Part shown: positions 1 through 6,437 of the stretch, one piece after another
Layout of the letters: each line of letters begins with the position of its first letter
How positions within the stretch are numbered: position 1 is the first letter of the stretch
Origin: a virus
Direction: 5' to 3' (one strand)
Virus record (IMG/VR): IMGVR_UViG_3300032242_001999
Location: 1 to 27,483 of that record
DNA length: 27,483 nucleotides
Translations under genes and position numbers: made by a program
Notes under the pieces: model-generated
Databases searched by the model: none
The model's input: only the letters and a program-made list of their open reading frames with translations
Told to the model about the DNA's origin: nothing

Positions 1-1
1 G

Positions 2-118
2 TATAAAATGGATGATACAATAGAGGCATATAGAAACTTTTATATTAAAGATAAAATAGGAATTAAAAATTTAGGATATAACAAATTAAACAATACACCA
101 GAATGGATAAAAAAATAA
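2..118 (+). CDS. small hypothetical protein, 3' end or complete short gene
   Basis: An open frame runs in from the left edge and stops at TAA 116-118. An ATG at 8 would give a 36-residue protein (MDDTIEAYRNFY... ending NTPEWIKK), but the frame is also open upstream of it, so this may be the C-terminus of a gene that begins before the window. It overlaps the start of the FAD gene by 16 bases in another frame, as expected for packed phage genes. I recognise no domain. It is rich in Lys, Asn and Ile and has no membrane segment. The reading as a real gene rests on its close packing with the next one. Confidence 0.4.
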   Translation, partial: YKMDDTIEAYRNFYIKDKIGIKNLGYNKLNNTPEWIKK

Positions 119-1413
119 TCATTGTAGGAGCAGGCGTTGCAGGCATTAATGCTGCAACTAAATTAGTAGATAACGGATACCCAGGAGAATTAATTACAAT
201 CATTGATAAAGGAAATGATCCGTATAATCGTCTACCAGAGGAAGTTATGTGTGGTTTCGCGGGAGCAGGCGCGTGGAGTGATGGCAAGCTAGTAGTATCA
301 ACAGTACAAGGTGGACAGTTGTCTAAGTATTGTGGTGAAGAAAAAGCTATGGAATTAATGAATGAAGTAGTAGCTAATTTTACTCGTTTTCATCCTAAAC
401 CAGAAGATATTTCATGTTCCGATCCTAAGGAAGAACCTGAATTTATTAAACCGTATTTCGACTTACGTATGTCACTTGTATGGCATATTGGTTCAAACTA
501 TTTACACGAGATTGCTAAAAATTGGTATCAATATTTGTTAAATAAAGGTATTACATTTATATGGAATACTGAAGTAACTTCTATTGATTTTAATCAAAAT
601 ACTATAACAGGAAAAGGAAAATTTGTAAGTCAACTTCCATTTACTTTTGAAGATACATACAATAAATTAATATTTGCAGTAGGTAAATCAGGTATTGATT
701 TCGCTCAAGAATTATCAGACGGATATAAATTACCAACTGAAGCTAAAGCAGTACAAATTGGTGTTCGATTTGAAGCTCCACAAAAATACTTCCAGAAATT
801 AATTGATGTATCTTATGATTTTAAGTTATATCAAAAACATGATAATATATCTATTCGCTCATTCTGTACTAACAATAATGCGGCTTATGTAGCGGTAGAG
901 GAAACATATGGTGACATTAGTTATAATGGTCACGCTAAGAAAGGTGAGGAATTTAGAAATGATATGACTAATTTTGGTATTTTAATGGAAATTAAGGGTA
1001 TTGAAGATCCATTTAAATGGAGTAGGGATGTAGTACAAAAATTACAATTTAATGGTACTGGTTTATACTATTCAACTAAACGTGTTAATTCTAAAACATC
1101 TGAAGGTGAGATTGTAAATGCATACCAAATTCATGAATTAAATGTATTTAAAGAGGCGTTAGGTGAATATGCTGATTATGTTTTAAACTTTATTGATGAC
1201 ATGAATAAAGTATTTGAATTTGGGAATGATTTTGGCATATACATACCCGAAGTTAAATATGCCGCTCCAGAACCTCTTACAAATCATAATGATATATCTT
1301 TAATAGAATACCCAAACGTACATTTTGCCGGAGATGCCCTCTCAGCACGAGGTATAACAGTAGCTGGAAGCCATGGAATATATATTGCTGAAAGTATTTT
1401 AAAGAAAATGTAA
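103..1413 (+). CDS. FAD-dependent dehydrogenase, COG2509-like
   Basis: A 436-residue protein starting with a dinucleotide-binding Rossmann motif, GAGVAG at residues 9-14 after a hydrophobic beta strand, as in FAD-binding oxidoreductases. A Cys-Gly-Phe-Ala-Gly-Ala-Gly-Ala-Trp-Ser-Asp-Gly-Lys stretch (residues 50-62) matches the glycine-rich signature of the poorly characterised COG2509 FAD-dependent dehydrogenases. The C-terminal GDALSARGITVAGSHGIY resembles the second FAD-contacting segment of that family. Substrate unknown; probably a cytoplasmic redox enzyme and an unusual auxiliary gene for a phage. The start at 103 places the nucleotide-binding motif at the usual distance from the N-terminus. 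There is no Shine-Dalgarno sequence. A diverged second copy of its last codons lies at 2179-2280, beyond the homing endonuclease, so its own 3' end may have been brought in with that element. Confidence 0.8.
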   Translation: MDKKIIIVGAGVAGINAATKLVDNGYPGELITIIDKGNDPYNRLPEEVMCGFAGAGAWSDGKLVVSTVQGGQLSKYCGEEKAMELMNEVVANFTRFHPKPEDISCSDPKEEPEFIKPYFDLRMSLVWHIGSNYLHEIAKNWYQYLLNKGITFIWNTEVTSIDFNQNTITGKGKFVSQLPFTFEDTYNKLIFAVGKSGIDFAQELSDGYKLPTEAKAVQIGVRFEAPQKYFQKLIDVSYDFKLYQKHDNISIRSFCTNNNAAYVAVEETYGDISYNGHAKKGEEFRNDMTNFGILMEIKGIEDPFKWSRDVVQKLQFNGTGLYYSTKRVNSKTSEGEIVNAYQIHELNVFKEALGEYADYVLNFIDDMNKVFEFGNDFGIYIPEVKYAAPEPLTNHNDISLIEYPNVHFAGDALSARGITVAGSHGIYIAESILKKM

Positions 1414-1423
1414 TTTTAATGTC

Positions 1424-1464
1424 AGGGACGTATATTTATACCAAATAACATAATATGCGTCCCT
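1424..1464 (+). promoter_or_regulatory. hairpin enclosing promoter motif and endonuclease start codon
   Basis: AGGGACG (1424-1430) is the exact reverse complement of CGTCCCT (1458-1464). The second arm covers codons 2-4 of the homing endonuclease, whose ATG is at 1455, and the loop contains the ATATTTATA motif (1432-1440). After one mismatch, three more pairs (ATA/TAT) can extend the stem. In a read-through transcript from upstream the stem would bury the start codon. A transcript begun downstream of the motif would lack the first arm and leave the start open. T4 I-TevI is known to be controlled by this kind of late-promoter-in-hairpin arrangement. Confidence 0.6.
1432..1440 (+). promoter_or_regulatory. 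ATATTTATA motif, candidate late promoter
   Basis: Exact copy of the repeated intergenic motif, 14 bases before the homing endonuclease ATG. It lies in the loop of the 1424-1464 hairpin. Promoter function is inferred from recurrence and position across the window. Confidence 0.5.
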
Positions 1465-2099
1465 ATATTTATTTGGTTAAAAACAAACAAGAAAAAGTAG
1501 TTTACATAGGGCAACAAATAGGGACTAAACTTATAAAAGAATATAAGGGTTCTGGTTTATTACTAAATAGAGCTTATGTGAAATACGGTGATGATTATTT
1601 TAAAAGAGAAATAATTGAATATTGTGATATAGATGAATTAAACAATAAAGAAAAATCATATATTAAAAAATATAACACTAAGTTTCCACATGGTTATAAT
1701 TTAACCGATGGTGGAGATGGGAATAAAGGATATCAATATAGTAACGATCAAAAACAAAATATATCTAATGCTAAAATGGGACAAAAATATCCAAAAGAAC
1801 ATGGTGAAAAAATAAGACAATCTAAATTAGGTAAAAAACGAGATCAAAATACAATAAATAAAATAATTCAAACAAAAGCCTCAAAACATAATATACAACC
1901 TGACTTAAATTTAAAAGGACAACACAGAAGTAATTCACAAAAAATAATCCTTCAATATGATCTTCAAGACAATCTACTAAACGAATACCAATCAGCACAA
2001 GAAGCAGGCCGATGTTTTAAAAAATCAGGAAATAGTATAGCAGATTGTGCTGCAGGTAAACAAAAAACAGCATATGGATTTAAATGGAAATATAAATAA
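1455..2099 (+). CDS. GIY-YIG homing endonuclease with NUMOD DNA-binding modules
   Basis: A 214-residue free-standing homing endonuclease. The N-terminal nuclease domain (about residues 1-90) shows the degenerate GIY motif (YIYLV) and a clear YIG (VVYIGQQ). It continues with YKGSG...LNRAYVKYG, a catalytic-type Glu in the NNKEKSYIKKYN helix, and GYNLTDGGDG, all typical of phage GIY-YIG enzymes. Residues about 95-140 carry two NUMOD3-like segments (NISNAKMGQKYP and KIRQSKLGKKRD). The C-terminus (about 160-214) resembles a NUMOD1/IENR1 repeat ending in AYGFKWKYK. It would cut a specific DNA site and spread by double-strand-break repair. It sits just after the FAD gene and is flanked by a duplicated 3' end of that gene, direct evidence of its mobility. 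Expression is probably limited by the hairpin at its start. Confidence 0.9.
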   Translation: MRPYIYLVKNKQEKVVYIGQQIGTKLIKEYKGSGLLLNRAYVKYGDDYFKREIIEYCDIDELNNKEKSYIKKYNTKFPHGYNLTDGGDGNKGYQYSNDQKQNISNAKMGQKYPKEHGEKIRQSKLGKKRDQNTINKIIQTKASKHNIQPDLNLKGQHRSNSQKIILQYDLQDNLLNEYQSAQEAGRCFKKSGNSIADCAAGKQKTAYGFKWKYK

Positions 2100-2116
2100 A
2101 AACTTAATAAAATAAA

Positions 2117-2178
2117 ATGTCAGAAACGAAAAAACTAAAAACAGCAGATGGAACAATAGCATACTATTGGGAAAACAA
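2117..2178 (+). pseudogene. orphan 5' fragment of a homologue of the 2306 gene
   Basis: The ATG at 2117 opens a frame reading MSETKKLKTADGTIAYYWEN and then Lys. It aligns with the start of the intact gene at 2306 (KRMKTIDGKIVYHLDGK), with about 8 identities in 20 and several conservative changes. The similarity ends near 2178, where sequence matching the 3' end of the FAD gene begins; the frame itself runs only to a stop at 2194. A truncated copy of a neighbour gene, probably carried in with the endonuclease and cut off at a non-homologous junction. Confidence 0.65.
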
Positions 2179-2280
2179 AATGTACACTTCGTAGGAGACG
2201 CTTTAAGTGCTCGTGGTATTACAGTATCAGGTGCGCACGGTATTTATGTAGCTGAAAGCTTAATTAACCCAAGTAAATAA
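2179..2280 (+). pseudogene. orphan 3' end of an FAD dehydrogenase gene
   Basis: Read from 2179, this encodes NVHFVGDALSARGITVSGAH and then GIYVAESLINPSK with a stop at 2278-2280. It matches the C-terminus of the 103-1413 protein (codons from 1315) at 23 of 29 aligned residues. Many codons differ at synonymous positions, so this is not a recent copy but comes from a related lineage. It has no start codon of its own. It is most simply the original 3' end of the recipient's FAD gene, displaced when the endonuclease and a donor 3' end were inserted upstream. Confidence 0.8.
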
Positions 2281-2305
2281 ATTATATTTAATTAAATAAA
2301 ATAAT

Positions 2306-2536
2306 ATGGCTAAAGATACAGGAGTAAAACGAATGAAAACAATTGATGGTAAAATTGTTTACCATTTAGACGGTAAACTACATAATTGGGAGGAACCAGC
2401 AGTGATTCATCCAGATGGAAAAAAAGAATATTGGTTATTTGGTTATCAATATACTAAAGATGAATTTATGGATCGTAAACGTGATTCAAATGGTATTCCA
2501 CCAGCAAAAGATCCAAAATACGATACACGTCTCTAA
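2306..2536 (+). CDS. small protein with phage NGKxHxxxxPAVI-type repeat
   Basis: A 76-residue protein. Its middle (DGKLHNWEEPAVIHPDGKKE, then YWLFGYQYTKDEF) fits the short beta-repeat seen in many phage and bacterial proteins of the 'NGKLHREDGPAV' type, related to YwqK/MORN-variant repeats. The function of these in phages is not known. The leader is AT-rich with no Shine-Dalgarno and contains only a near-match to the window motif (TATATTTAAT, 2283-2292). The orphan fragment at 2117 is a diverged relative of its N-terminus, so this gene and the FAD gene were probably neighbours before the endonuclease arrived. Confidence 0.7.
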   Translation: MAKDTGVKRMKTIDGKIVYHLDGKLHNWEEPAVIHPDGKKEYWLFGYQYTKDEFMDRKRDSNGIPPAKDPKYDTRL

Positions 2537-2539
2537 TTA

Positions 2540-2548
2540 ATATTTATA
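2540..2548 (+). promoter_or_regulatory. ATATTTATA motif, candidate promoter
   Basis: Exact copy of the motif, ending only 3 bases before the ATG at 2552. If it is a promoter, the transcript would have to be leaderless or nearly so. This and the 10604 copy are the two positions that argue against a simple -10 reading. Confidence 0.4.
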
Positions 2549-2551
2549 TAC

Positions 2552-3073
2552 ATGAAAATAGGATTATGCGGAACAATGTCAGTTGGTAAAACAACGTTAG
2601 TTAAAGCGTTGGCTAAGACTGGTGAGTTCAAAAAATATAAAACTGCTACTGAACGTAGTAAATACTTACGTGATTTAGGTATTCCATTAAATACTGATTC
2701 ATCAATAAATGGTCAATTTGTATTTTTAGCTGAACGTGCTAGTGAATTATTGCATGAAAATATATTAACAGATAGAACAATATGGGATGTATGTTCATTT
2801 ACAATGTTAGCTAAATCTATTGGCACACATGATAAATCTCAGTTTGTAAATGCAGCGATGACATTAAGAGAACAATATGATATTGTATTCTATATTGAAC
2901 CTGTTGGTGTAGAAATGGAAGATAATGGTGTAAGAGAGACAAATCTTGAATATAGAGCTGACATTAATCAAGAAATATTACGTTTATTAACATTATTTCC
3001 ACCTAAAAAATTAGTAATATTACATGGTTCAACTAAAGATCGTGTAAAAAATGTATTAGACGCTTTAAAATAA
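2552..3073 (+). CDS. P-loop NTPase, NadR/AAA_28-like kinase
   Basis: A 173-residue protein opening with a Walker A loop, GTMSVGKT at residues 7-14. It continues with ERSKYLRDLGIPLNTDSSIN and a LTDRTIWD segment in the position of the catalytic Asp-Arg of small nucleoside/nucleotide kinases, then a YDIVFYIEP strand. This arrangement fits the AAA_28 / NadR-C-like family, known in T4-like phages and thought to phosphorylate nucleosides or nicotinamide riboside. The substrate cannot be read from the sequence. The start at 2552 is required to keep the whole P-loop; the next Met (codon 9) lies inside it. No Shine-Dalgarno is present. Confidence 0.75.
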   Translation: MKIGLCGTMSVGKTTLVKALAKTGEFKKYKTATERSKYLRDLGIPLNTDSSINGQFVFLAERASELLHENILTDRTIWDVCSFTMLAKSIGTHDKSQFVNAAMTLREQYDIVFYIEPVGVEMEDNGVRETNLEYRADINQEILRLLTLFPPKKLVILHGSTKDRVKNVLDALK

Positions 3074-3074
3074 A

Positions 3075-3083
3075 ATATTTATT
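3075..3083 (+). promoter_or_regulatory. ATATTTATT motif variant, candidate promoter
   Basis: One-base variant of the recurrent motif, 19 bases before the ATG at 3103, in the short gap after the P-loop gene. Confidence 0.45.
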
Positions 3084-3102
3084 AACATAACAACAACAAA
3101 TC

Positions 3103-4062
3103 ATGGCAGATTTCGATTTTAAAAAGTTTATAACTGAAGCAAAACTTAACGTTAAAGTACCTGTGAAGGAAATGGCTCGTATTGCTAAAGAAAAATATAA
3201 ATTAAACCCTGACTTCCCAGAAATTAAAGATAGAATTAAAAATCCATCTAATTTTAAGACAGATAGAAAACAACAAGTAATTAATTATTTTATATCTCAA
3301 GCTAAAGAGCAAGGTATTAAACCATTTAATGTTGAATTATTAAAAAGTGATATTGAAAAAAATGCCGCACCAGGCGTTAATTGGTCTTTTACTCCTGATA
3401 TTCGTACTCAACTTTTACAAACAACAACAGTAAAACCAGAAACAGCTCCTGATGATGAAGAAGGTAATTATTTTAGTACACCAAGTGATGCTGAAGATTT
3501 GTTTATAGGTAAATCAAAACTTAGAGGCACAAAAGCATTAGGTAAAGGTGACGATGAAGGTCCATCAGAAAAAGATTTAGCTAAACTTAATTTATCAAAA
3601 TCATCACCTTTAAATTCTAAAGTAGGAGATTTCTTTAATAAAAATACAGAATTGATTGATAGAATTATTAGAAAATATTCTACATCAACTATGAAAACAG
3701 GTCGTGTAGTTAAAGAAGCTGAAGACGGAGGAATGTCAAGTGCTGATTTAAAAGCAGCTAATGTTAAATCAAAAACAGCAGCTAAAGAAGCATTACCTGA
3801 ATTAATTCAGCAACTTATAGATGAACTTAAAAAATTAAAAGCAGAAGATCATAACGCATATGTTAGAGTATTAAATGATCTTGACAAATACAAATTCACA
3901 CCTACAAATACTAAAGGTGTTTTAAAACAACTTCTTAAAGCGTTAGATGAACCAACAATGCCTACAGTAGCAGGTAAAAAGAAGAAAAGTGATGATGATG
4001 AATTAAAAGCTTTAGGAATTGATGATGAACCAATCGAATTAGACGGCGAAGACGAAATTTAA
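3103..4062 (+). CDS. hypothetical head-associated protein with T4 internal-protein-like N-terminus
   Basis: A 319-residue, lysine- and acid-rich protein without membrane segments, otherwise unrecognised. The N-terminus MADFDFKKFITEAKL resembles the capsid-targeting sequence of T4 internal proteins (MKTYQEFIAE, then A), including the (I/L)-x-E site cut by the gp21-type prohead protease (here I-T-E before Ala). The 9878 gene has a matching start. The middle is helical and charged, and the C-terminus is very acidic (DDDELKALGIDDEPIELDG). I infer a protein packed into the prohead and trimmed during maturation, but a core or virion protein of another kind is possible. It has its own motif upstream, and the next gene starts 5 bases after its stop. 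Confidence 0.55.
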   Translation: MADFDFKKFITEAKLNVKVPVKEMARIAKEKYKLNPDFPEIKDRIKNPSNFKTDRKQQVINYFISQAKEQGIKPFNVELLKSDIEKNAAPGVNWSFTPDIRTQLLQTTTVKPETAPDDEEGNYFSTPSDAEDLFIGKSKLRGTKALGKGDDEGPSEKDLAKLNLSKSSPLNSKVGDFFNKNTELIDRIIRKYSTSTMKTGRVVKEAEDGGMSSADLKAANVKSKTAAKEALPELIQQLIDELKKLKAEDHNAYVRVLNDLDKYKFTPTNTKGVLKQLLKALDEPTMPTVAGKKKKSDDDELKALGIDDEPIELDGEDEI

Positions 4063-4067
4063 ATTTT

Positions 4068-4742
4068 ATGAAAAAATACATCCTACCAGTAATTTTACTT
4101 TTAATCGTGTTATGGTTTGCTTTTGATAAAGTAACTAACATTGGATTAACAAAAGAATTCAAAGCAAAACAAGACAGTTTAGTTAAAGCTGTTGATTCAA
4201 TGCAGTTAGTAATAGTTAAAGAAGATAAAGCTATTGACTCATTAAATCAAGTTGATAGTGATTTACAATATAAAGTAGATCATCAAAAAGCAAAAGTTAT
4301 TACAATAGAAAAAGCAGTTTTATTTGATCAAGCTAAAATTGATACTTATGATGAACATCAATTAGTGAGTTCATTTAATCAACGCTATCCAAAAGACACA
4401 ATGTTTAATCCATTGCCTGTAGCACAACCAGTATTAGTAAGTGCGGCTAAGGATTTAGTAGAATTAGATGGCGCTAAACAAATTTTAGTATTAAAAGATA
4501 GTTCAATTGCTACTTTAGAAACAAGAGTATCACTTAAAGATAGTGTTATTAATAAGTACGTTTCTAAGGAAAATACTTATAAAAATATTGTTAATAACCA
4601 AAATACACAAATTAAAGATTGGAAATTTCAATATAATAGTTTACAATTAGAAAACGCTAAGTTAAAAACTAAAAATAAATTTACTAAAATCGGAGCTGGA
4701 TTAATAGCTGGTGGTTTAGTTTATTTAATGATATCAAAATAA
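4068..4742 (+). CDS. coiled-coil protein with a membrane segment at each end, possible spanin
   Basis: A 224-residue protein with a hydrophobic N-terminal segment (YILPVILLLIVLWFAF, about residues 4-19). A long Lys/Asp/Gln-rich, probably coiled-coil body (about 25-200) follows, interrupted by an FNQRYPKDTMFNPLPVAQP segment. A second hydrophobic stretch lies at the C-terminus (KIGAGLIAGGLVYLMI, about 206-221). There is no cysteine, so no lipobox. N-anchored coiled-coil proteins are typical of inner-membrane spanins (Rz-like). The extra C-terminal segment is reminiscent of unimolecular spanins, which however carry an N-terminal lipid anchor. It lies just before a terminator, apart from the head genes. 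Function is inferred only from topology; a tail or membrane protein of another type is possible. Confidence 0.5.
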   Translation: MKKYILPVILLLIVLWFAFDKVTNIGLTKEFKAKQDSLVKAVDSMQLVIVKEDKAIDSLNQVDSDLQYKVDHQKAKVITIEKAVLFDQAKIDTYDEHQLVSSFNQRYPKDTMFNPLPVAQPVLVSAAKDLVELDGAKQILVLKDSSIATLETRVSLKDSVINKYVSKENTYKNIVNNQNTQIKDWKFQYNSLQLENAKLKTKNKFTKIGAGLIAGGLVYLMISK

Positions 4743-4847: not shown

Positions 4848-6437
4848 ATGAGTGATCAACAAAATATAAAAGAAATAATTAAACAGGAATATGTTAAGTG
4901 CGCTACCGATCCTGTTTATTTTATGAAAAAGTATTATTGGATACAACACCCACAACGTGGCCGTATTCAATTTAATTTATACCCATTTCAAGAAGGTGTA
5001 TTACACCAGTTTAAAAAGAACAAATACAGTATTGTAAATAAGTCAAGACAATTAGGTATATCTACCTTATCTTCCGCTTATTCACTTTGGTTAATGTTAT
5101 TTAGTAAAGATAAAAATATACTTTGTATTGCTACTAAGCAGGAAACTGCTAAAAACATGGTTACTAAAGTAAAATTTGCTTATGATAATCTACCAAGTTG
5201 GTTACAATTAAAAGCAATAGAAAATAATAAATTAAGTCTAAAATTAAGTAACGGATCTCAAATTAAAGCAATTGGTGCTACAGGCGACGCGGGTAGATCT
5301 GAAGCCGTGTCATTACTGTTACTAGATGAGGCTGCCTTTATTGAAGGTATAGATGAGATTTTTGCTTCTGCTCAACAAACCTTAGCTACTGGGGGACAAT
5401 GTATAGCTATATCAACTCCATTTGGTACAGGTAATTGGTTCCATAGAACATTTATTGGAGGAGAAGAAAATAAAAATGGATTTGTATCTATAAAATTACC
5501 TTGGACAGTACACCCAGAAAGAAGTCAAAAATGGAGAGATGAACAAGATGCTATTTTAGGAATTAGGAATGCCGCTCAAGAATGTGATTGTGACTTCACC
5601 ACTTCGGGTGATACTGTTGTTGAACCAGATATTTTAAATTGGTATATTCAAACATATCAAGCTGATCCAATAGCTAAAGGAGGATTTGACGGTAACTTAT
5701 GGCGTTGGGAATATCCTGACTATTCTAAAAATTATATTGTAGTAGCTGACGTTGCCCGTGGTGATGGAAAAGACTATTCAGCATGTCATGTTATTGATAT
5801 TGAAAATGCTAGACAAGTAGAAGAATATAAAGGACAACTTGGCACTAGAGACTACGGTCATCTATTAGTATCTATAGCTACCGAATGGAATAACGCCTTA
5901 TTAGTAATAGAAAACGCTAATATAGGTTGGGACACAATACAAACTGTAATAGATAGAGGATATCAAAACTTATACTACTCATCTAAATCAGATACTGCTA
6001 ATATTACAATGGATAATTTCTTAAGTCGAAATGATAATAATTTAATACCTGGATTTACTAACTCAATTAAAACTAGACCACTTGTTGTTTCAAAATTAGA
6101 GGCATACATGCGTGAAAGAGCTTGTGTTATTCAATCACGCCGTACATTAGAAGAATTAAGAACATTTGTTTGGAAAAACGGTAAAGCTCAAGCTAATGAT
6201 GGGTATAATGACGACCTTGTAATGGCTTTTGGTATTGGTATGTTTTTACGTGATACAGCTTTAAAATTTTCTCAAGCAGGTATGGATTTAACTCGCGCTT
6301 CACTTGGAGGTATAGGAAGAATTTCGTATAATATCGGATCAAGTAATGCTTACGCTCCACACAGTCCTCAAAATACTAATCCATGGCATATGGATACTGG
6401 AACAGGACAAACAGAAGACATTAGCTGGTTGATATAA
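4848..6437 (+). CDS. terL: terminase large subunit, gp17-like
   Basis: A 529-residue packaging motor with ATPase and nuclease halves. The ATPase half has KSRQLGIST (residues 65-73) as a deviant Walker A, the Walker B LLLLDE (Asp160, Glu161) and a coupling STP at 189-191. The RNase H-like nuclease half shows Asp301 in IVVADVARGDG, Glu355 in LLVIENAN and Asp455/456 in YNDDLVMAF, which would be the metal ligands. It would dock on the portal, pump DNA into the prohead and cut the concatemer. The canonical P-loop lysine is replaced by Ile; the Lys at the start of the loop may substitute, as in some other phage terminases. Portal follows directly, without the sheath and tube genes found between them in T4. 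Confidence 0.95.
   Translation: MSDQQNIKEIIKQEYVKCATDPVYFMKKYYWIQHPQRGRIQFNLYPFQEGVLHQFKKNKYSIVNKSRQLGISTLSSAYSLWLMLFSKDKNILCIATKQETAKNMVTKVKFAYDNLPSWLQLKAIENNKLSLKLSNGSQIKAIGATGDAGRSEAVSLLLLDEAAFIEGIDEIFASAQQTLATGGQCIAISTPFGTGNWFHRTFIGGEENKNGFVSIKLPWTVHPERSQKWRDEQDAILGIRNAAQECDCDFTTSGDTVVEPDILNWYIQTYQADPIAKGGFDGNLWRWEYPDYSKNYIVVADVARGDGKDYSACHVIDIENARQVEEYKGQLGTRDYGHLLVSIATEWNNALLVIENANIGWDTIQTVIDRGYQNLYYSSKSDTANITMDNFLSRNDNNLIPGFTNSIKTRPLVVSKLEAYMRERACVIQSRRTLEELRTFVWKNGKAQANDGYNDDLVMAFGIGMFLRDTALKFSQAGMDLTRASLGGIGRISYNIGSSNAYAPHSPQNTNPWHMDTGTGQTEDISWLI

Follow-up and report, generated by a model that had tools for sequence, protein, structure and literature searches.

Layout of the locus

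The locus described here raises the question of how a homing endonuclease gene (HEG) came to lie between two copies of the 3′ end of one gene, and which of the two copies belongs to that gene. The DNA analysed (the window, 27,483 nucleotides) comes from a T4-type phage of the Flavobacterium type, whose terminase is 59.5% identical to that of Flavobacterium phage immuto. All features given below are located on the plus strand. The target gene (positions 103–1413, hereafter FAD) is an intact but hybrid reading frame for a FAD-dependent oxidoreductase-like protein (phrog_12409, "dehydrogenase"), and its last 33 codons, the resident tail, read PNVHFAGDALSARGITVAGSHGIYIAESILKKM. A comparison with solved structures gave no match to the FAD protein, and among named phage isolates its relatives, which are found in Campylobacter phages, are only about 27% identical. 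FAD is followed by the HEG (1455–2099, 214 amino acids), the truncated start of a small gene (2117–2182, MSETKKLKTADGTIAYYWENKM), a second FAD 3′ end severed from the rest of the gene (2178–2280, NVHFVGDALSARGITVSGAHGIYVAESLINPSK and a stop codon; the stranded tail), and an intact small gene of 76 amino acids (2306–2536), which is the usual downstream neighbor of FAD. An earlier note on this DNA had described this series of pieces, and all of them were found where it had placed them. A kinase-like P-loop gene (AAA_28; 2552–3073), recognized by its domain match and in relatives, forms the conserved right flank. The FAD gene of the window and its relatives are strongly mosaic along their length; several blocks are 93–98% identical to locus L001 at the nucleotide level, others near 60–80%.

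Occurrence in related viruses

The comparison set consisted of 80 FAD-gene loci, supplemented by searches with the HEG and its leader and by 78 loci retrieved with a distant second FAD query. Most FAD loci carry no HEG at this place, which is occupied in about two dozen contigs by HEGs with the same C-terminal NUMOD1 and at least five kinds of nuclease half. Long stranded FAD tails were detected behind the HEG in the window, L035, L064, L082, and L090, that is, in 5 out of 21 HEG-bearing and 0 out of 65 HEG-less loci (Fisher p 5.8e-4), frequencies that are biased because HEG-bearing loci were partly found via the HEG search and HEG-less loci via their closeness to the query. A second FAD tail was found in none of the HEG-less loci with at least 1.5 kb of downstream sequence (0 out of 65, then 0 out of 71 further loci). 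Short native FAD stubs directly follow the HEG in the window, L087, L101, L112, and L072, and an in-frame fusion to a sequence ending in VAESLLS and a stop codon was seen by eye in L107. As read from these alleles, the one locus is seen before, during, and after invasion across related viruses, and the window is one case of a recurrent event. In L035, L064, L082, and L090, an open reading frame (ORF) ends 0–9 nucleotides before the stranded tail. A selected ORF/stranded-tail junction, which these four loci had suggested, was dropped because the sample was too small.

Origin of the two tails

The stranded tail of the window shares 23 of 29 residues (79%) with the resident tail, as the earlier note had counted. 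The similarity was recovered by tblastn in the local set with an E value of 8e-13, and the stranded tail is 94% identical over 103 nucleotides to the native FAD tails of the HEG-less loci L012 and L014; on both grounds, the likeness is not due to chance. In a tree of 29 tail codons, all stranded tails (7 out of 7) nested among the native tails of HEG-less loci, in different places, and their best matches to such tails reached 85–97% nucleotide identity. The resident tails beside HEGs clustered in the same tree, where the HEG state required 4 changes (shuffle mean 22, minimum 16), compared with 11 changes on the core tree (codons 1–360); columns and well-supported forks are few in the tail tree, and the result rests on the label counts and the allele pairs described below. 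The FAD core rejected the 13 HEG-bearing rows with an AGS-type tail as one clade (log-likelihood drop 917, p-AU 1.8e-39), whereas the tail accepted this clade; since the AGS group was defined from the tail, only the core rejection is independent. The HEG-bearing tails do not form one recent lineage. Those of L064/L095/L105/L107, L084, L089, L108, and L109 lie outside the main group, which indicates that the replacement tails are old and diverse. Their diversity at codons 376–405 also accounts for the weak identity contrast between HEG-bearing and HEG-less loci along FAD, which was clear only at codons 421–435; trees and allele pairs were used for this reason. Core codons 151–165 also reached p 0.001 in this contrast, without explanation.

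A change of affinity was also found within the FAD gene of the window. Codons 346–378 are nearest to the HEG-less loci L022 and L012, by a narrow margin (0.88/0.87 vs. 0.86 for the next loci), whereas codons 379–436 are nearest to the HEG-bearing L085, L091, and L064 and to L095, a relic of HEG loss. The 3′ end of cassette type thus comprises codons 377–436 approximately (1231–1413), with the left switch at about 1231–1240. This switch bears out the earlier proposal that a donor segment consisting of a FAD 3′ end, the HEG, and a small-gene start had been joined to the recipient by homologous exchange on the left. Judged by these affinities, the resident tail beside the HEG is foreign to its own gene body and the stranded tail is the native one.

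Allele pairs and the mobile unit

Loci L042 (without HEG) and L035 (with HEG) form a before/after pair. Up to codon 377 approximately, their FAD genes are 93.8% identical overall at the nucleotide level: codons 1–260 are 97–100% identical, a mosaic patch lies near codons 270–340, and the sequences are identical again to a stretch ending in GGTGATGATT at about codon 377. Beyond this point, L035 differs from L042 by a replaced tail, the HEG, and one ORF, which are followed by the stranded tail. Positions 5359–6426 of L035 correspond to positions 1901–2975 of L042 with 96% identity, a stretch made up of the stranded tail and the 1 kb that follows it. Several differences between the two lie mainly in the first 40 nucleotides or so of the stranded tail and almost none after, as if the right exchange in L035 may have taken place inside the stranded tail. 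A second pair, L082 and L074, carries one cassette in two FAD backgrounds. The sequences are (nearly) identical from about codon 379 to about 9 nucleotides past the HEG stop codon, the FAD cores before the cassette are divergent, and the sequence after it is unrelated. From the limits in both pairs, the mobile unit is read as about 58 FAD codons, a hairpin leader of 38–41 nucleotides, and the HEG.

The two related tails that flank the HEG could also be thought to stem from a plain local duplication, in which the FAD 3′ end was tandemly duplicated, the HEG slipped in between, and the tails diverged later. The foreign tail is, however, the resident and not the stranded one, the stranded tails match native tails of HEG-less loci at the identities given above, and the L042/L035 pair displays replacement and insertion with no duplication. 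The tail phylogeny and this pair led us to reject local duplication, which we regard as highly improbable.

Right junctions of the window

The earlier note had further proposed an illegitimate right junction, and the sequences on both sides agree with one of microhomology type. The small-gene fragment is 82% identical over 22 amino acids to the N-termini of the small genes directly after FAD in L046 and L015, and this donor-type similarity stops at 2182. Recipient-type similarity starts at 2178; from there onward, the window resembles L012 and L022, including the intact small gene (84–95% amino acid identity to these loci), and is collinear with L012 for 4 kb at 86%. The 5-nucleotide overlap AAATG (2178–2182) is common to the donor-type and the recipient-type sequence.

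A third FAD-tail remnant, missed by the earlier note, is located directly behind the HEG. Positions 2099–2127 match L040 and L043 in 29 out of 29 nucleotides, covering the final 17 nucleotides of their native FAD gene and the beginning of their small gene; the match scores 56 bits (99th percentile of shuffles, 31.5). The 17-nucleotide stub (2099–2115, ending in NLIK and the stop codon) corresponds to the native FAD 3′ end of an L040/L046-type phage and would mark an earlier, nested right junction. The window contains two nested right junctions (at about 2099 and at 2178–2182) and hence two nested events. In the simplest account, the donor phage would have been invaded earlier, with a right junction within the last five codons of its native FAD gene, and the second event would have carried this already invaded arrangement into an L012-type phage. 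Of the single-event account given earlier, the joining of a donor segment is retained; one event alone does not suffice, as there are two nested junctions and the type recurs.

An assembly artefact joining two phage variants at 2178 had to be considered because the window is a metagenomic contig and a junction search found the 2178 junction in no other viral contig. The same layout is nevertheless present in six other contigs (L035, L064, L082, L090, L095, and L114) with at least five further, different junctions, and the right flank of the window is the one collinear with L012 for 4 kb. Such an error is scarcely credible here.

Proposed cut site and mechanism

The earlier suggestion of a nuclease cut at the right junction, close to the NVHF codons (codon 405), is not supported by the relatives. 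The left switch is constant at codons 377–380, while the right junctions scatter over codons 391–436 (stop). With the left edge fixed and the right edge scattered, the cut is better placed at about codons 377–391, and we infer that the HEG product more likely cuts the uninvaded FAD gene within this interval. Among the positions at which HEG-less and HEG-bearing alleles can be told apart, a group is clustered at codons 379–390, which fits protection of the new host; the recoded tail probably shields it from cutting.

In the proposed mechanism, the enzyme would cut the 3′ part of an uninvaded FAD gene. Immediately to the left of the cut, the left broken end would recombine with the FAD gene of the donor, from which it would copy the replacement tail, the leader, and the HEG. 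FAD would thereby stay whole as a hybrid, which is the outcome displayed by the sequence. The right end would be resected to a variable extent and, if the donor DNA beyond the HEG lacks homology to the recipient, would be closed illegitimately at short or no homology. Part or all of the native 3′ end would be left stranded downstream; the stranded tails are observed, and the mechanism is adopted from one-sided homing in T4. There, one-sided illegitimate double-strand-break repair in intron homing yields microhomology junctions and extensive resection (PMC2988022). The combination of homology on one side with microhomology junctions and resection on the other is the one proposed here. The T4 results were obtained in laboratory crosses with an intron (PMC2988022), whereas here a cassette without an intron would have left its traces in nature. 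At a later stage, the stranded tail may act as a right-hand homology arm, and HEGs are lost by deletion, of which relics are found (see below).

The FAD genes are mosaic throughout, and ordinary phage recombination explains part of the pattern. It might be asked whether it explains all of it, the tails and the HEG having been moved by generalized recombination at conserved stretches with no cutting involved; phages recombine freely. However, the left switch lies repeatedly at codons 377–380, junctions and stubs are concentrated behind HEGs (stranded tails in 0 out of 136 HEG-less loci), and repeated illegitimate right ends at one gene are not expected from ordinary mosaicism, which we consider improbable as the sole explanation. 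By contrast, we place high confidence in the reading of a homing endonuclease cassette that brings along its own recoded version of the final 58 codons or so of the target gene and is closed on the right by one-sided illegitimate joining.

A different role of the stranded tail would be a functional one: it could be kept as a recombination arm belonging to the element, or it could provide a second C-terminus to which the gene switches. One ORF/stranded-tail junction is common to L035 and L114 (ORF 84% identical at the amino acid level), although their backgrounds differ, the differences between L035 and L042 are placed as if the right crossover lay inside the stranded tail, and L024 resembles an allele that arose when resident and stranded tails recombined. 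Stranded tails, however, can be as short as a few nucleotides or as long as about 45 codons, and a long one is missing from most HEG-bearing loci, so that a functional tail appears unlikely. Returning to the cassette, these elements could represent a class of phage mobile elements that avoid breakage of the target gene without an intron or intein. They would enter with a cut-resistant replacement 3′ end and an illegitimate right join, after which the stranded native tail would be a ready right homology arm for two-sided homing, and different GIY-YIG domains would be combined with one NUMOD1 and one target. This generalization is put forward tentatively, at somewhat less than even confidence.

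Comparison with known systems

The replacement of gene C-termini by mobile ORFs is known from fungal mitochondria, namely from atp6 of Allomyces macrogynus and from atp6, atp9, cox2, and nad3 of Glomus (PMC3630166). As in these cases, an endonuclease ORF is accompanied by a foreign C-terminal piece fused in frame to the host gene, and the native C-terminus is stranded downstream and is closer to relatives than the inserted one; both features were found at the FAD locus, with native stranded tails in 7 out of 7 cases. The fungal examples are mitochondrial and mostly of the LAGLIDADG type (GIY-YIG in atp9), whereas the present one is from phages. The fungal study compared one occupied genome with close relatives (PMC3630166), whereas the FAD locus offers a set of alleles that are empty, occupied, relic, or chimeric. 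Some of the stranded tails in the fungal systems are transcribed (PMC3630166). Tail replacement by an endonuclease ORF would thus be an already known process that becomes visible in viruses here.

The arrangement of a GIY-YIG enzyme beside its target gene without an intron resembles the "intronless homing" of the free-standing Seg and Mob endonucleases of T4 (PMC2988022). The reported free-standing enzymes cut hundreds to thousands of base pairs from the HEG (PMC2988022), whereas the presumed cut lies about 0.2 kb upstream here and native 3′ ends are stranded. As for mobA and mobE in T4 gene 60 and Aeh1 nrdA, the HEG insertion alters the structure of a phage gene; in those cases the gene is split into two working pieces (PMC2988022), whereas the 3′ end of FAD is replaced and the gene stays whole. 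A phage case with stranded native 3′ ends was not found in the open-access literature, which is weak evidence of absence. The entry of intron-less homing genes into a genome with no damage to the gene they cut, and the outcome of one-sided homology, have so far been studied in T4 crosses and inferred in a few mitochondria. The natural alleles at the FAD locus include sites that are empty, sites that are occupied (some with a stranded tail, others without), relics of HEG deletion, and chimeras that may be immune. With this series, the steps of invasion and decay, the position of the cut, and the function of the replacement tail become directly testable.

Relics, chimeric alleles, and decay

Two loci found via the leader sequence, L095 and L114, contain stranded tails and the leader but no HEG. 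In L114, the first four HEG codons are retained as well, with the join at a 9-nucleotide direct repeat. HEG-less relatives with duplicated tails were named in the earlier note as speaking against an invasion. Such relatives do exist in these two loci, but both keep the HEG leader; with the leader in both and the first HEG codons in L114, they are read as relics of HEG loss and not as a refutation. In L114 (258–310), the HEG was apparently deleted between direct repeats of AAATATTAT, one in HEG codons 2–4 and the other just past the HEG stop codon.

The HEG-less L024 contains cassette-type DNA at about codons 376–406 followed by a native tail, as either partial conversion or recombination of the resident with the stranded tail would produce. 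L123 resembles L024 in the protein sequence of the FAD 3′ end. Both combine a native tail with a block of cassette type where the cut presumably lies, and are candidate immune or excision alleles. In L085, the HEG is broken near residue 35. Homing genes pass through a cycle of gain, decay, and loss, and L095, L114, L024, L123, and L085 together resemble stages of such a cycle. Positions 4001–4849 of L085 contain this frameshifted HEG and, after it, the beginning of another HEG copy that runs into the end of the contig.

The endonuclease and its leader

The HEG product of the window matched phrog_314 ("homing endonuclease") with an E value of 2.7e-33 and NUMOD1 with 1.2e-5, above the Pfam cut-off; the Pfam GIY-YIG match (E 0.035) was below the cut-off. 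The Y-I-Y..Y-I-G motif and the conserved Glu are present, so that a nuclease domain is combined with a NUMOD domain as in GIY-YIG homing endonucleases. The catalytic Arg after the YIG motif is R27 in I-TevI. The HEG alignment contains no invariant Arg; by eye, this residue is present in the other nuclease types, and the window type has no evident counterpart. Among named phages, relatives of the HEG (30–36% identity) occur in crAss-like and Staphylococcus phages, where they adjoin other genes. FAD and the HEG are separate ORFs, and a group I intron was rejected for lack of an Rfam match in window positions 1–4500 up to E = 1. As expected of a free-standing HEG, the gene is present in some relatives and absent from others at one site, and flanking sequence is transferred along with it.

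The leader between FAD and the HEG is predicted to fold into a hairpin (1418–1469; −19.5 kcal/mol, z −3.9), whose 3′ arm contains the HEG start codon (1455–1457). The hairpin z scores of four type-1 leaders ranged from −3.9 to −5.8, and two pairs with changes on both sides were found among seven sequences. The hairpin probably masks the start codon and limits HEG translation. Start-codon hairpins regulate several T4 HEGs and have been reported for I-TevI, segB, and Aeh1 mobE (PMC2988022).

In the HEG alignment, one strongly conserved NUMOD1 C-terminus is combined with at least five different GIY-YIG halves, all at the single target gene, which suggests swapping of nuclease domains on a fixed recognition module. 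A second NUMOD1-type HEG was found directly upstream of FAD in L083 (2272–2643), L085 (2195–2623), L087 (2164–2580), L088 (2095–2505), L100 (1876–2499), and L106 (74–730), so that the FAD gene is flanked by HEGs on both sides in these loci.
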